A DNA stretch of 22,905 nucleotides from a virus. Position 1 is the first letter of the stretch, and the number at the start of each line of letters is the position of its first letter. Shown here in pieces: positions 3,131 to 22,905 of this stretch. The notes below the pieces were generated by a model, which was not told the origin of the DNA, did not search any database, and saw only the letters and a list, made by a program, of their open reading frames with translations. The stretch lies in IMG/VR virus record IMGVR_UViG_3300007363_000114, positions 1-22,905 of that record, one strand, 5' to 3'. Position numbers and translations under genes: made by a program.

Positions 3131-5344
3131 ATGACTCAGAAGGTCTTCTCCCTCGACACGCAGCCGGGCATTCAGCGCGACGGAACTACTTTCGACAAGC
3201 AGTTCTACAGCGACGGCCAATGGGTGCGTTTTCAGCGCGGCAGGCCTCGCAAGATCCTTGGCTACCGGGTGATTTCGGACCAACTGAGCGGCCCGTCTCG
3301 CGGCATTTGGGTCAACTCGCAGAACGCCTTCACCTCGATCTTCAGCGGGTACTCTGACGGCCTGCAGGTCCTGACCATCGACAACAACGGCGTCGGCGCT
3401 GGCGTGGGAACCTTCACGCTGGCCAACTTCACCGCGTCGCCCCTCAACCTCTGGCAGTTCGATGGCTTCTACGACGTGGCCGGAACCGGCCTGCAGTCCA
3501 TCGTGGCGCACCCGGGGCAGAACCTTGCCTCGATTGACAACGACACCAACACGCCGGTCCTGATCGGCGACATCACTGGCCTGAACATGTCTCAGGTGGG
3601 CGTGTTCACGGACTCGGTGACCACCACGGCGCTCTCGAACACCATCACGCTGGCTGCGGCCAACCCGTTGATCGGCGCTGGCCAAACCATCACCGGCACG
3701 GGTATTCCTGCAAACACCACGGTGGTGTCGGTGTCCACCACCACGGTCACCATCTCGAACAACGCCACGGCCTCCGGTACGGTGACGGCGACCTTCAACA
3801 ACAACGTGTCGGTCTCCGGCGGCCTTGTGTCGCTGCACCCGTACCTGTTCGTGTACGGCAACAACGGCCTGATCAAGAACTGCTCGGCTGGCAACGCCAA
3901 CGACTGGGTCTCTGCGGACGCCAACGAGACCAACGTGGCCACCGGCAAGATCGTCCAAGGCCTACCCGTGCGCGGCGGCTCAAACGCGCCCTCTGGGCTG
4001 TTTTGGAGCCTCGACAGCCTGATCCGCGTGTCGTTCATTGGCGGCACGGGCACCCCTCCCCAGTACTGGCGCTACGACATCATCAGCAGCCAGTCCTCGA
4101 TCATGTCGTCCCAGTGCGCGATTGAGTACGACGGCATCTACTACTGGATCGGTGTTGACCGGTTCCTTCTCTACAACGGCGTGGTGAAGGAAATCCCGAA
4201 CAACATGAACCAGAACTACTTCTTTGACAACCTGAACTACGACCAGCGCCAGAAGGTCTGGGCGACCAAGGTGCCGAGGTACGGTGAGATCTGGTGGTTC
4301 TACCCCCGTGGCGACTCCACCGAGTGCAACGACGCAATCATCTACAACGTGCGCGAGAACACTTGGTACGACGCCGGTCAGGCCTTGGGCGCTCGCCGCT
4401 CCGCCGGGTACTTCTCGCAGGTGTTTGCCTACCCCGTTGCGGCAAATTGGGAAACCAGCGAGGCCGTCACCGTCTTCACGGACACCTTCAACGAGGTGAG
4501 CGGCAGCGAATTCCTGTACCTCGACACCTACAACACGCAGGCCGCCATCGGTCAGGTCATCTCCGGCTCGAACATCCCGACCGGCACCAAAGTCGTGGCG
4601 ATCACAACCAGCAACATCAAGACGCTGGGCTCCATCACCCCGGGTTCTGGCTATGTGGATGCGGTCTACACCAATGTACCCCTCACGGGAGGCTCAGGAT
4701 CGGGCGCAGAGGCCACAATTTCCGTGGTTGGGGGTGCAGTGACCACCGTGACTTTGACGGCCCGTGGGGCCGGATATGCGGTCGGGGACAGCCTGAGCGC
4801 CAGCAACACCAATTTGGGCGGCACCGGGTCGGGTTTTGCCATCCCCGTGACGGCCATCTACGCCCAAGCCATCGAGATGTCGGACGCCTCCACCGGCACC
4901 GGCTCCGCCTCCCTGACGTTCTCGATCCCCGAGGGCCTGATCGAGATCTATCAGCACGAGATTGGCACCGACGACATCAACGGCCAGAACGTGCGAGCCA
5001 TCCGCAGCTTCTTCGAGACCAATGACTTGAGCTGGCTGCAGGGTGGCCCGTCCCAGCCCGCTCCTGAAGGCATCAACAAGTGGGTTCGACTTGAGCGCGT
5101 GGAGCCTGACTTCCTGCTCAACGGTGAGATGGAGCTGTACATCACCGGACGACCCTTTGCGCAGAGCCAAGACGTCACCACGGGCCCGTATACCTTCGAC
5201 TCGAACATCGGCAAGATCGACATGAAAGAGCAACGGCGCGAGTTGAGGCTCAAGTTTGTGTCTGACGTGGCCGGTGGCAATTACCAGCTTGGTAAGGTGG
5301 TGCTGAACGCCGACTTCGGCGACGTGAGGGGTTATGGCTCTTAA
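3131..5344 (+). CDS. tail nozzle / DNA-stabilisation-like protein with inserted accessory modules
   Basis: Large (737 residues) tail protein, probably the nozzle or stabilisation protein below the adaptor. The N-terminus (SLDTQPGIQRDGTTFDKQF, then DGQWVRFQRGRPRKILGY) is a pattern I associate with nozzle/stabilisation proteins of podovirus-like phages. The core has aromatic and Gly-rich segments such as YYWIGVDRFLLYNG and GEIWWFYPRG at roughly 335-400. The C-terminal region (about 600-737) runs from IEIYQHEIGTDD to KVVLNADFGDVRGYGS. Two Ig-like beta modules interrupt the core, at about residues 156-221 and 455-597; the second is itself interrupted at about 498-580. The start directly follows the previous stop. 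The next gene overlaps the end by 11 bases. Assignment rests on pattern and gene order, not on a search. Confidence 0.6.
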   Translation: MTQKVFSLDTQPGIQRDGTTFDKQFYSDGQWVRFQRGRPRKILGYRVISDQLSGPSRGIWVNSQNAFTSIFSGYSDGLQVLTIDNNGVGAGVGTFTLANFTASPLNLWQFDGFYDVAGTGLQSIVAHPGQNLASIDNDTNTPVLIGDITGLNMSQVGVFTDSVTTTALSNTITLAAANPLIGAGQTITGTGIPANTTVVSVSTTTVTISNNATASGTVTATFNNNVSVSGGLVSLHPYLFVYGNNGLIKNCSAGNANDWVSADANETNVATGKIVQGLPVRGGSNAPSGLFWSLDSLIRVSFIGGTGTPPQYWRYDIISSQSSIMSSQCAIEYDGIYYWIGVDRFLLYNGVVKEIPNNMNQNYFFDNLNYDQRQKVWATKVPRYGEIWWFYPRGDSTECNDAIIYNVRENTWYDAGQALGARRSAGYFSQVFAYPVAANWETSEAVTVFTDTFNEVSGSEFLYLDTYNTQAAIGQVISGSNIPTGTKVVAITTSNIKTLGSITPGSGYVDAVYTNVPLTGGSGSGAEATISVVGGAVTTVTLTARGAGYAVGDSLSASNTNLGGTGSGFAIPVTAIYAQAIEMSDASTGTGSASLTFSIPEGLIEIYQHEIGTDDINGQNVRAIRSFFETNDLSWLQGGPSQPAPEGINKWVRLERVEPDFLLNGEMELYITGRPFAQSQDVTTGPYTFDSNIGKIDMKEQRRELRLKFVSDVAGGNYQLGKVVLNADFGDVRGYGS

Positions 5345-6078: not shown

Positions 6079-12447
<6,369 letters not shown>

Positions 12448-20426: not shown

Positions 20427-20470
20427 GTCGAACTCCTTGTGCTTGGTGTTCGACCATTATAGATCCGTTC
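20416..20470 (-). promoter_or_regulatory. two-part hairpin over the HNH ribosome-binding site, with TATAAT box
   Basis: In the leftward transcript: outer arms GAACGGATC / GATCCGTTC (20462-20470 with 20416-20424, 9 bp, perfect) and inner arms GTCGAAC / GTTCGAC (20448-20454 with 20427-20433, 7 bp, perfect). The inner loop carries the Shine-Dalgarno AAGGAG, whose last G is the first stem base. The ATG spans the short 3' bulge (AT) and the first base of the outer 3' arm. A consensus -10 box TATAAT (complement of 20456-20461) lies in the 5' bulge, without a good -35. Transcripts started there would lack most of the 5' arms. Confidence 0.6.
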
Positions 20471-21147
20471 TAATTAAAAGGGATGTCATCATCCATGTCG
20501 TCAAAGCCGGAGCCCTGACGTGCCTGACGATCCGCACCGGACTGCTGCTCGCCCCGTGCGTACTCCTCACCCTCGCGGGCCTGCCATTCCGGCGACGCCT
20601 TGATCTTGTCCTTCAGGCCGTTGCTGAAGGTGTCGAACAGCTCCATGTCAGGGTTCTCGATGGCAAACATCGCAGGCTTGTTGTGGGCCTCTGGCATGCC
20701 AGCCTTCTTGATGGCAGCAGGCACCGGGTTCACCGACATGATGTTGGTGTACTCCTTGCCGTTGTTGCCAATCGACTTGGCCACAGAGATCATGGCCCAC
20801 GCGCCGAGGATGTTCTTCAGCTCGAAGCCGCGCAGCTCCTCTGGCGTGAAGTCGCGGCCGCGCCAAGCCTGAAGGTCCTTGCGCAGGGTGGCCTTCTCAG
20901 CAAGGCTGAGGGTGTAGTTCTTCGAGATGGACATGGGCTCGCCCTTGTTGGTCACGAGCGCCTTGCCTTTGTCGTCCTCGCCGTGAACTTCGAACTGGAT
21001 CATGACCTTTTGCAGGTACTTGATCTGCCCTTGGTACTCGGACTTTTGGGTGCCGAGGTCAACGATGCGGTAGCACCGTGCGAGGTGCATGCCGGGTGGG
21101 ACTGGGGTGAAGCTGCCTTCGCCGCTGTCTTTCGCTATCAAACTCAT
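20470..21147 (-). CDS. single-stranded DNA-binding-like protein with acidic tip
   Basis: Probable ssDNA-binding protein of phage replication and recombination. The 225-residue product starts MSLIAKDSGEGSFTPVPPG, then has ARCYRIVDLGTQKSEYQG, a beta-rich part with KVMIQFEVHGEDD and SISKNYTLSLAEKATLRKDL, then FELKNILGAWAMISVAKS and YTNIMSVNPVP. The last residues are Asp-rich and end DDMDDDIPFN, the acidic tip typical of SSB proteins that recruit partner enzymes. It lacks the short E. coli SSB fold length and resembles a phage-specific group I know only by pattern. The start has AGGAGC ahead of it and overlaps the upstream stop by ATGA. Confidence 0.7.
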   Translation of the reverse strand: MSLIAKDSGEGSFTPVPPGMHLARCYRIVDLGTQKSEYQGQIKYLQKVMIQFEVHGEDDKGKALVTNKGEPMSISKNYTLSLAEKATLRKDLQAWRGRDFTPEELRGFELKNILGAWAMISVAKSIGNNGKEYTNIMSVNPVPAAIKKAGMPEAHNKPAMFAIENPDMELFDTFSNGLKDKIKASPEWQAREGEEYARGEQQSGADRQARQGSGFDDMDDDIPFN

Positions 21148-21332
21148 TCTTCGCTCCTAGTGATTGAAACACTTTCCAAGGTTACAAATTGACGTCTGGG
21201 CACCCCGCACTCGTAGCGGATGATGTTCCAGTCGTCTGCGGTAGCAGTGCCTGCCTCGGCCCGTTCTAAGGCCTCCTCAAGCTGCTGCATTCGTTCCAGC
21301 ATGAGCTGGTGATATTCGGCGCTGTCGTTCAC
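21144..21332 (-). CDS. small helical hypothetical protein (62 aa)
   Basis: Small acidic protein with one long helix (YHQLMLERMQQLEEALERAE) then TADDWNIIRYECGVPRRQFV. The helix-plus-short-tail form suggests a dimeric coiled coil. It starts with GTG at 21332 inside a GTGA overlap with the upstream stop, and GGAGGG is well placed. The end overlaps the SSB-like start by ATGA, so its translation is coupled on both sides. Family unknown. Confidence 0.65.
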   Translation of the reverse strand: MNDSAEYHQLMLERMQQLEEALERAEAGTATADDWNIIRYECGVPRRQFVTLESVSITRSEE

Positions 21333-21580
21333 AGTTCAACCCTCCAGCGGCGCAACCAAGCGCTGCGCAGGCGCATCCACAAGCTGGGCTTGCGGTGCGG
21401 CTTGGCCAACAAGGCCGTCTGCAGGTCTTCCATGTCGCGGCTGACGGTCAGCTTGGGCTTGGGCTGGTACATGCAGCCGATCTTCAGCCCGGTGCTGGTG
21501 GTATATGGCACTGGTCGTTGGTTCACTTCGCTCTCCTTCGCTGTGGGTTCGGCCGAGTGTAGCTGGTTTAAGCTCAACAT
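21329..21580 (-). CDS. first gene of the leftward operon, basic hypothetical (83 aa)
   Basis: Basic protein starting MLSLNQLHSAEPT, with TGLKIGCMYQPKPKLTVSRD in the middle, then MEDLQTALLAKPHRKPSLWM and an Arg/Trp-rich end (RLRSAWLRRWRVEL) that could touch membrane or nucleic acid. The longer frame to 21682 crosses the divergent gene and promoter and is rejected. ATG at 21580 has AAGGGGG (complement of 21585-21591) ahead of it. Codons 3-6 contain one arm of the 10-bp inverted repeat of the control region, so an operator may lie inside the gene. Function unknown. Confidence 0.6.
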   Translation of the reverse strand: MLSLNQLHSAEPTAKESEVNQRPVPYTTSTGLKIGCMYQPKPKLTVSRDMEDLQTALLAKPHRKPSLWMRLRSAWLRRWRVEL

Positions 21581-21629
21581 ACAACCCCCTTGCGTGAAAA
21601 AATTTTCAGTGTATGATCGGCTTAAACCA
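21564..21629. promoter_or_regulatory. divergent control region with inverted repeats
   Basis: Outer perfect 10-bp inverted repeat TGGTTTAAGC (21564-21573) / GCTTAAACCA (21620-21629), placing the same sequence just inside both outgoing transcripts. Inner inverted repeat TGAAAA-AA-TTTTCA (21595-21608) lies between the -35 and -10 boxes of the rightward promoter. Both are candidate operators for the HTH protein encoded next. No convincing leftward promoter was found. Confidence 0.55.
21590..21617 (+). promoter_or_regulatory. rightward promoter of the regulator/replication genes
   Basis: -35 TTGCGT (21590-21595), 16-base spacer, -10 TATGAT (21612-21617). The start of transcription would be near 21624, about 25 bases before the regulator ATG, with AGGAGAG (21635-21641) as ribosome-binding site. 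Confidence 0.6.
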
Positions 21630-21648
21630 ACCACAGGAGAGTGACCAC

Positions 21649-21858
21649 ATGACATTGATCGAATTCTTTGAGACGAAGCCACGAGGCGCGAAGCTTGCGA
21701 TGGCCCAAAAATTGGGCATCAGCAAGACTTGGATGAGCCTGATCGTAAGTGGCCGACAGCTACCCAGTCCAGAGCTGTGCTTGGCCATCGAGCGCTACAC
21801 AAAGGGTCAGGTGAAGCGCAAGACATTGCGACCCGACATCTTTGGAGACCTGCGGTGA
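21649..21858 (+). CDS. YdaS/Cro-like helix-turn-helix regulator (69 aa)
   Basis: Probable Cro-type repressor acting on the divergent region. Helix-turn-helix reads AKLAMAQKLGISKTWMSLIV (about residues 14-33). The following SGRQLPSPELCLAIERYTKG and the ending LRPDIFGDL are characteristic of YdaS-like regulators. An ATG at 21613 is in frame but falls in the -10 box, so it cannot be used from the promoter seen here; the ATG at 21649 with AGGAGAG is chosen. The stop overlaps the next GTG start (GTGA), tying regulator and replication protein together. Whether the phage is temperate cannot be told from this gene alone. Confidence 0.82.
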   Translation: MTLIEFFETKPRGAKLAMAQKLGISKTWMSLIVSGRQLPSPELCLAIERYTKGQVKRKTLRPDIFGDLR

Positions 21859-22514
21859 TTTGGTACAAATTCCACCTCGGTGACTACATCACCCACACGC
21901 TGCACCTCAGCGATGCTGAGGATCTGGCTTACCGCCGCCTGCTCGACCTGTACTACATGAGCGAGCAGCCAATCCCACTCGATACCGAATTGGTTGCCCG
22001 CAAAATCAGGCTCGATCTGGACATAACCGAATCGGTTTTGAGGGAGTTTTTTGAACATACCGAAAACGGGTATCGCAATAGTCGTTGTGATGTCGAAATT
22101 GCCAAATATCAGCATCAAGTCGAAAACAACCGACAGCTCGGAAAGCGAGGCGGCAGGCCGAAGAAAACCGAATCGATAACCGAAACGAAACCGAACACAA
22201 ACCCTAACAGAAACAGAAATAGAAATACAAATACCATATCGTCGGTTGCACCGACTGTGTCGCGGTTCGATGAGTTTTGGTCGACATGGCCAACGTCCAA
22301 ACGCAAAGTTGGTCGCGCCGCTGTGCTTGCGAAGTGGGAGAAGCACAACCTCGACGGCGTGGCCGACATCATCATCGCCAATGTCAAAGCCCTGAAGGCA
22401 TCTGAGCAGTGGCTTGGCGGATTCGAGCCAGCGCCGATGACCTACATCAACCAACGCCGCTGGGAAGATGAAAACGGGGCCTCTGAGGCGTTTTCTGGCC
22501 GGAGGGTGATATGA
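21855..22514 (+). CDS. DUF1376 replication initiation-type protein (219 aa)
   Basis: Probable replication initiator or helicase-loading protein, in the place of lambda O. N-terminal DUF1376 domain (about 1-90): WYKFHLGDYITHTLHLS, EDLAYRRLLDLYYMSEQPIP. A Gly/Lys turn (KRGGRPKK) follows, then a linker rich in Asn, Arg and Thr (NPNRNRNRNTNT) encoded by A-rich DNA. The C-terminal domain (about 140-210) has FDEFWSTWPTSKRKVGRAAV then PAPMTYINQRRWEDE, the pattern of phage replication proteins that bind helicase partners. Start is GTG at 21855 in a GTGA overlap with the regulator stop, with GGAGA upstream. Repeats typical of an origin lie within the gene. The end overlaps a 22-codon ORF by ATGA. Confidence 0.8.
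   Translation: MIWYKFHLGDYITHTLHLSDAEDLAYRRLLDLYYMSEQPIPLDTELVARKIRLDLDITESVLREFFEHTENGYRNSRCDVEIAKYQHQVENNRQLGKRGGRPKKTESITETKPNTNPNRNRNRNTNTISSVAPTVSRFDEFWSTWPTSKRKVGRAAVLAKWEKHNLDGVADIIIANVKALKASEQWLGGFEPAPMTYINQRRWEDENGASEAFSGRRVI
22025..22040 (+). repeat. 16-bp exact repeat, copy 1
   Basis: AACCGAATCGGTTTTG, identical to 22737-22752 in the primase gene. Both copies include the palindrome AACCGA-A-TCGGTT and both read as Thr-Glu-Ser-Val-Leu in their genes. Confidence 0.8.
22025..22247. other. candidate replication origin: AACCGA repeats and A-rich tract
   Basis: AACCGA occurs at 22025, 22128, 22166, 22178 and 22189, the last three as AACCGAA spaced 12 and 11 bp. The complement TCGGTT is at 22032 and 22242. 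An A-rich stretch on the + strand (about 22196-22240) lies between the three close repeats and the inverted copy. AACCGA-A-TCGGTT (22025-22037) is a perfect palindrome. The layout is like the lambda origin inside gene O, but most copies also read in frame as Thr-Glu, so coding coincidence is possible. Confidence 0.42.
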
Positions 22515-22579
22515 CCCCTTACCCCACCCATAAAAACGTCACCACGGCCCGATTTGACCCCTTGGCGAGGCATCAATGA
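22511..22579 (+). CDS. 22-codon ORF between replication genes
   Basis: Reads MTPYPTHKNVTTARFDPLAR then HQ. It has a good ribosome-binding site (GGAGGG, seven to eight bases ahead) and ATGA overlaps at both ends, with the DUF1376 gene before and the primase after. It may be a real mini-protein or only a translational link that carries ribosomes to the primase start. No domain can be seen at this size. Confidence 0.4.
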   Translation: MTPYPTHKNVTTARFDPLARHQ

Positions 22580-22905
22580 CCCCTGTTGAGAACCTGCTGC
22601 AGAAGTTGGAGAAGGTCAAGGGCCGCAATGGCTCGTGGACTGCTCGTTGCCCGGCGCATGACGACAAAGGGCCATCCCTCGCGATCCGTGAGGCTGACGA
22701 TGGGCGCATTTTGCTGCATTGCTTTGCAGGGTGCCAAACCGAATCGGTTTTGGGTGCGGTGGGTATGGACATGACTGATCTGTTCCCGCCGGAAGAGAAG
22801 CGTCGCGAATACCCTATGGCAGGAAAGCCGTCGATGAAGCCTGCGTTCTTTGCCAGCGACCTGATGCGCATCATTGGGTTCGAGGCGCTGGTGGTGCAGA
22901 TCGTG
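22576..22905 (+). CDS. CHC2-type primase (partial, N-terminus only)
   Basis: Start of a phage primase or primase-helicase; the frame is open to the window end (110 codons). MTPVENLLQKLEKVKGRNGS leads into a zinc-binding region: C25 and H28 in ARCPAHDD, then C49 and C53 in LLHCFAGC, as in toprim primases of phages and plasmids. PSLAIREADDGR lies between them, and MDMTDLFPP follows. The last part (FFASDLMRIIGFEALVVQ) fits the region joining the zinc domain to the catalytic part. The ATG overlaps the stop of the 22-codon ORF and has GGCGAGG upstream. Whether a helicase domain follows cannot be seen. Confidence 0.85.
   Translation, partial: MTPVENLLQKLEKVKGRNGSWTARCPAHDDKGPSLAIREADDGRILLHCFAGCQTESVLGAVGMDMTDLFPPEEKRREYPMAGKPSMKPAFFASDLMRIIGFEALVVQIV
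22737..22752 (+). repeat. 16-bp exact repeat, copy 2
   Basis: Same sequence as 22025-22040, inside the primase zinc-finger region. The codons are identical (Thr-Glu-Ser-Val-Leu), although the two proteins are not otherwise alike here. Confidence 0.8.

Follow-up and report, generated by a model that had tools for sequence, protein, structure and literature searches.

The repeats clustered inside the gene for a DUF1376 protein are probably the replication origin of a tailed phage, an intragenic origin of the iteron type that the DUF1376 protein itself would bind. The DNA analyzed is a virus fragment of 22,905 bases (hereafter, the window), and the presence of an iteron origin inside a DUF1376 initiator gene was proposed in the initial annotation of this fragment. 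Comparative analysis strongly supports this core idea, although details of the placement had to be corrected. We favor the origin for several reasons. The repeats are constrained at the DNA level, and their half-sites occur independently of the reading frame in relatives. The periodicity is family-wide, with different words in the same place and non-coding copies in one locus (L347). Finally, palindromes and arrays are in excess, the context is one of replication, with a primase next and a DnaB-like helicase further on, and the protein shows weak winged-helix matches.

Genes for a YdaS-like regulator, the DUF1376 protein and a primase follow one another in this order, all on the plus strand. 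The YdaS-like HTH regulator gene (21649..21858; Pfam YdaS_toxin, 7e-13) lies directly upstream of the DUF1376 gene (21855..22514), which starts with GTG and matches PF07120 (1.4e-21) and the PHROG category of primosomal / replication initiation protein. The primase gene (22576..22905; PHROG DNA primase, 3.6e-17) is cut by the window end. In the relative G008, a reading frame further downstream was assigned from its sequence as a DnaB-like helicase. Another relative of the DUF1376 protein, with 71% identity, is located on a contig binned as Limnohabitans, and the host is therefore probably a freshwater member of Burkholderiales. The interval that separates the YdaS-like gene from the genes of the minus strand contains a 26-nt inverted repeat (TGGTTTAAGC ... 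GCTTAAACCA, 81%), which surrounds a promoter-like stretch at 21558-21635 and resembles an operator pair of some regulator.

Five AACCGA and two TCGGTT copies had been reported between 22025 and 22247, and recounting gave the same positions, 22025, 22128, 22166, 22178 and 22189 on the plus strand and 22032 and 22242 on the minus strand. The 22,905 bases contain 11 copies of AACCGA/TCGGTT, against a dinucleotide expectation of 11.15; seven fall within these 223 bp, two are in the primase gene (22737 and 22744) and two are elsewhere (272 and 11514). A similar density throughout had been named as evidence against an origin, and within the window the word is clustered, not evenly spread. Seven copies per 223 bp were matched by no other 6-mer, except in the GT-rich repeat near 10.2 kb, and in 200 dinucleotide shuffles of 20455-22905 no 6-mer formed a cluster of more than five. 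In addition, permutation of the codons of the DUF1376 gene with the protein preserved gave 1.67 ± 1.12 copies compared with the actual seven, a number reached in none of 5000 permutations. The GT-rich low-complexity repeat (10150-10550) encodes Gly-Thr/Gly-Ala runs within a 2122-aa reading frame (6079-12447).

Inspection of these copies together with the codons of relatives indicated two main elements. The first is a palindromic site, the 13-bp inverted repeat AACCGA-A-TCGGTT (22025..22037, both strands). The second is a direct-repeat array (22166..22195, plus strand) of AACCGAA at 22166, 22178 and 22189, with the spacings of 12 and 11 bp that had been claimed. The array is followed by an A/C-rich tract (22196..22235, plus strand; A or C at 33 of 40 positions), a candidate unwinding element whose A+T content is 68% by count, whereas the window as a whole has about 59% G+C; within the tract, AACCCT (22200-22205) is invariant among relatives. 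All of the copies had been assigned to the linker-coding part of the gene. This holds for the array (codons 104-114; predicted disordered linker, about 107-133), but the palindrome at 22025 belongs to the part coding for the N-domain. Similarly, the palindrome and array sites are conserved, but two of the seven copies are not. The AACCGA copy at 22128..22133 (plus strand), not kept as a half-site in relatives, is probably incidental, and so is the TCGGTT copy at 22242..22247 (minus strand), where the GTT codon varies. Upstream of the palindrome, a degenerate palindrome, ACCGAATTGGTT, is located at 21984..21995 (plus strand), and many relatives carry ACCGAATCGGTT at the equivalent place, +129 from the gene start and 42 bp ahead of the next site. 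The primase gene contains a second palindromic site, AACCGAATCGGTT (22737..22749, both strands), found in only some relatives (L068 and L069), and the identical 16-mer AACCGAATCGGTTTTG is present again there, at 22737-22752.

Conservation was determined with 80 relatives taken from IMG/VR (69-84% amino-acid identity) and aligned codon by codon, 50 representatives of which were used for the measure of synonymous variation. Loss of the repeats in relatives had been named as a further argument against an origin; they are retained. The palindrome codons 58-61 (ACC GAA TCG GTT) showed zero synonymous variation in the 50 representatives, giving an excess codon conservation of 1.00, and one relative with Thr replacing Ser uses ACG instead of TCG. 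The array codons (AAA ACC GAA TCG ... ACC GAA ... AAA CCG, then AAC CCT) are nearly as invariant. Excess conservation reaches 0.95 over codons 103-113, while the remainder of the N-domain has 0.43 and the C-terminal part 0.34. Among 49 distinct linker alleles, 43 have half-site spacings of 12 and 11 and frames of 0, 0 and 2, and three half-sites with at least one out of frame are found in 44. In the L068 linker the spacings are 11 and 11, and the half-sites occupy all three frames. Replacements of T by S and of P by A change ACCGAA into AGCGAA, which is the predominant word of the non-coding arrays. Judged from these sequence comparisons, the repeat row of the linker is under selection as DNA.

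The same place was then analyzed across the family, using 48 DUF1376 representatives from further IMG/VR loci, bacterial loci and phage records. For 45 linkers whose N-domains are less than 70% identical, repeated 6-mers were compared with a synonymous-permutation null, and excess was observed at lags 11 (z 5.8) and 22 (z 8.2) as well as at lags 7, 14, 28 and 35 (z 4.9-7.5). None of these lags is a multiple of 3; lags 12, 21, 27 and 33, which are such multiples, were raised too. In the N-domain control, only lag 22 departed from a flat profile (z 3.0). When 7-mers were counted in 13 linkers of less than 50% identity, lags 7, 11 and 14 were in excess, with the observed value reached in 0 of 500 permutations, and the controls from the N- and C-parts were flat. 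Measured from a point 27 nt ahead of the end of the domain, the 11-bp array is at a median of +58 nt, and 7-bp repeats of the AACCNNN type come after it at a median of +100, in a region where A+C reaches 0.75 across the family. The repeat words differ between families in this same place, examples being CAACGGGCGTT, CAACGACCGTT, GAACGAACGCT, GCGAACGCAAT, AACCCAG and TTCAACGAACG. Second arrays of the linker words were sought in the other DUF1376 families and were convincing in L347 only, where six 11-bp copies of the linker motif (3825-3900) lie in the non-coding gap that immediately precedes the DUF1376 gene, possibly as an autoregulatory element or as part of the origin.

A linker that merely repeats Thr-Glu, Asn and Lys codons could also produce repeats in the DNA, and the initial annotation had rightly cautioned that several copies read as Thr-Glu; ACCGAA is in frame at 22026, 22167, 22179 and 22738, and also at 21984 and 22059. 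It was equally right that one copy is off frame (ACCGAA at 22190, within AACCGAA at 22189). We reject this protein-level explanation, since the 11- and 7-bp spacings are not multiples of 3, copies stand in different frames, their number exceeds the protein-preserving null and non-coding copies exist.

The DUF1376 protein is assigned with confidence to its family (77.1 bits versus a curated cut-off of 30.1 for PF07120), which was the sole Pfam match at E 0.001, with no lambda O-family model found. The AlphaFold2 model (mean pLDDT 80) has two helical domains, an N-domain that also contains a small hairpin and a C-domain, and the segment encoded by the array and the tract, approximately residues 107-133, is disordered. 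Structural matches of the N-domain are mostly to winged-helix DNA-binding domains; these are weak (Z at most 6.7) and, being below Z 8, are only suggestive. A PDB sequence search with the DUF1376 profile gave no match, and Foldseek against the PDB gave nothing below E 0.001. Right before the linker, 22146-22165 encodes GKRGGRPKK, whose AT-hook-like GGRPKK motif is found in many DUF1376 proteins.

Sites were also counted over the whole contigs of twelve relatives (643 kb). The palindrome ACCGANTCGGT occurs 45 times, whereas 29 palindromes of matched composition average 1.1 occurrences and reach at most 4, and 29 arrays were found versus none in five local shuffles. Besides those in the DUF1376 gene, arrays recur in relatives ahead of the gene for the small subunit of terminase (terS); on a circular map this place is mostly 8-11 kb downstream of DUF1376, circularity being assumed for contigs in which this distance wraps round the ends. 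The terS-side array is known from the relatives, as the window itself stops in the primase gene; it consists of half-sites in 11-bp steps with a palindrome at the end. A third array (AGCGATTGAGAACCGAACTGAAA[CG]CGATTCGGT) is present in L100 (18459-18500) and L115 (6627-6670), near the 3' end of a reading frame and about 100 bp ahead of the next gene. In L083, L114, L116 and L099, a stretch that begins near GGGCCAA.ACGCATG and ends near GCCGTGTTGG lies between the array and terS. Rfam gave no match on three long terS-side loci (L116, L114 and L099), and ARAGORN detected no tRNA in seven loci including these three and L083.

The position before terS suggests two other roles. In the first, the A[CG]CGA-N-TCG[CG]T sites and 11-bp arrays would be operators of a transcription regulator that controls the replication operon and the terS-led late operon, with the copies in the DUF1376 gene as intragenic operators. 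Such a regulator would account equally well for the terS-side sites; a site-like word stands about 40 bp ahead of terS in all 10 genomes in which terS was located, and in nine of them it is AGCGAATCG adjoining a -10-like TACACT, TACGAT or TAAACT (ACCGAAAGGGTTTACACT is the site-like word in G021); sites precede a few other genes as well. This explanation is nevertheless unlikely for the system as a whole, because it accounts neither for arrays of different sequence at the same place in unrelated DUF1376 families nor for the adjoining A/C-rich 7-bp repeats, and the sites within the gene have no adjacent promoter-like element. In the second, the small subunit of terminase would bind the arrays as a packaging signal, of pac or cos type upstream of terS, and the DUF1376-gene sites would be secondary. 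An unbiased scan of all IMG/VR contigs with a 14-base version of the palindrome gave 119 loci, 18 with a DUF1376 gene and 26 with an array at the site, and a terminase large-subunit motif was found in 23 of the latter, in agreement with packaging. However, no other part is kept as constantly as the array within the gene, and this array recurs in DUF1376 families for which the search gave no terS-side array with the same words, which makes a packaging signal very improbable. The terS-side sites could serve as operators or in packaging, but neither function accounts for the array that the whole family carries within the DUF1376 gene.

Under the origin interpretation, the ydaS-DUF1376-primase operon would supply the DUF1376 protein, and its winged-helix-like N-domain may bind the palindrome at 22025 and the array at 22166-22195. 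Because the spacing of about 11 bp places the half-sites on one helix face, we propose that a cooperative complex forms, which would open the adjacent A/C-rich tract (22196-22235), and the C-domain might recruit the primase/helicase encoded downstream. The terS-upstream array is probably bound by the same protein, as an SPP1 oriR-like site or for coupling to late genes. The cumulative GC skew, recommended earlier as a check, reaches its minimum no more than about 1 kb from the start of DUF1376 in four of nine long relatives but elsewhere in five; since this result is mixed, it is not counted in favor of the origin.

The arrangement is comparable with three known systems. The lambda origin (ori-lambda) lies inside gene O, where iterons and an A/T-rich tract occupy the linker between the DNA-binding and partner-binding domains (PMC6022878, PMC7466680), and here too an array in the linker-coding part of an initiator gene is followed by an A/T-rich tract. 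Unlike lambda, whose iterons are 18-bp hyphenated inverted repeats, the present gene has half-sites 11-12 bp apart and separate 13-bp palindromes, and the initiator is a DUF1376 protein (PF07120), which Pfam does not place in the lambda O family. In Bacillus phage SPP1, the direct repeats bound by gp38 are those within its own gene 38 and those of oriR, which is in the late region at a distance of about 12-13 kb (PMC6316719, PMC3485210). Like SPP1 oriL/oriR, the present phage group combines repeats in the initiator's own gene with a second cluster, located in relatives 8-11 kb downstream and upstream of terS; the host group is different, the second cluster borders directly on terS and on a promoter-like word, and an A/T-rich tract is seen in the gene, with no obvious A/T-rich neighbor or unwinding element at the terS-upstream arrays. 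The E. coli Rac prophage, which has an active origin, oriJ (PMC3945230), shares the order of neighbors around its DUF1376 gene (ydaS-ydaT-ydaU-ydaV, with ydaU as DUF1376). The linker of Rac ydaU carries a looser version of the repeats, TGTT dyads about 12, 11 and 13 bp apart, whose words differ from those of the window.

Phages and prophages, E. coli Rac among them, commonly encode DUF1376 proteins, for which annotation usually goes no further than primosomal or unknown function; a full-text search of open-access articles yielded five that contain the name, a single time each. Similar repeat rows occur in the DUF1376 genes of very different phages. It is conceivable, and we suggest it tentatively, that DUF1376 proteins form a broad family of initiators in phages, with the origin in their own linker-coding DNA and in a previously undescribed format, in which 7-bp A/C-rich repeats come after an iteron array with a one-turn spacing of 11 bp. 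In the group of the present phage, the protein might also bind the terS-upstream array and affect late transcription, fork stalling or packaging, thereby coupling replication to the late program. If this is true, the linker DNA of each DUF1376 gene would pinpoint both the origin and the binding word of the initiator without experiment, and the family would offer a test system for the co-evolution of an origin and a protein linker in one sequence.
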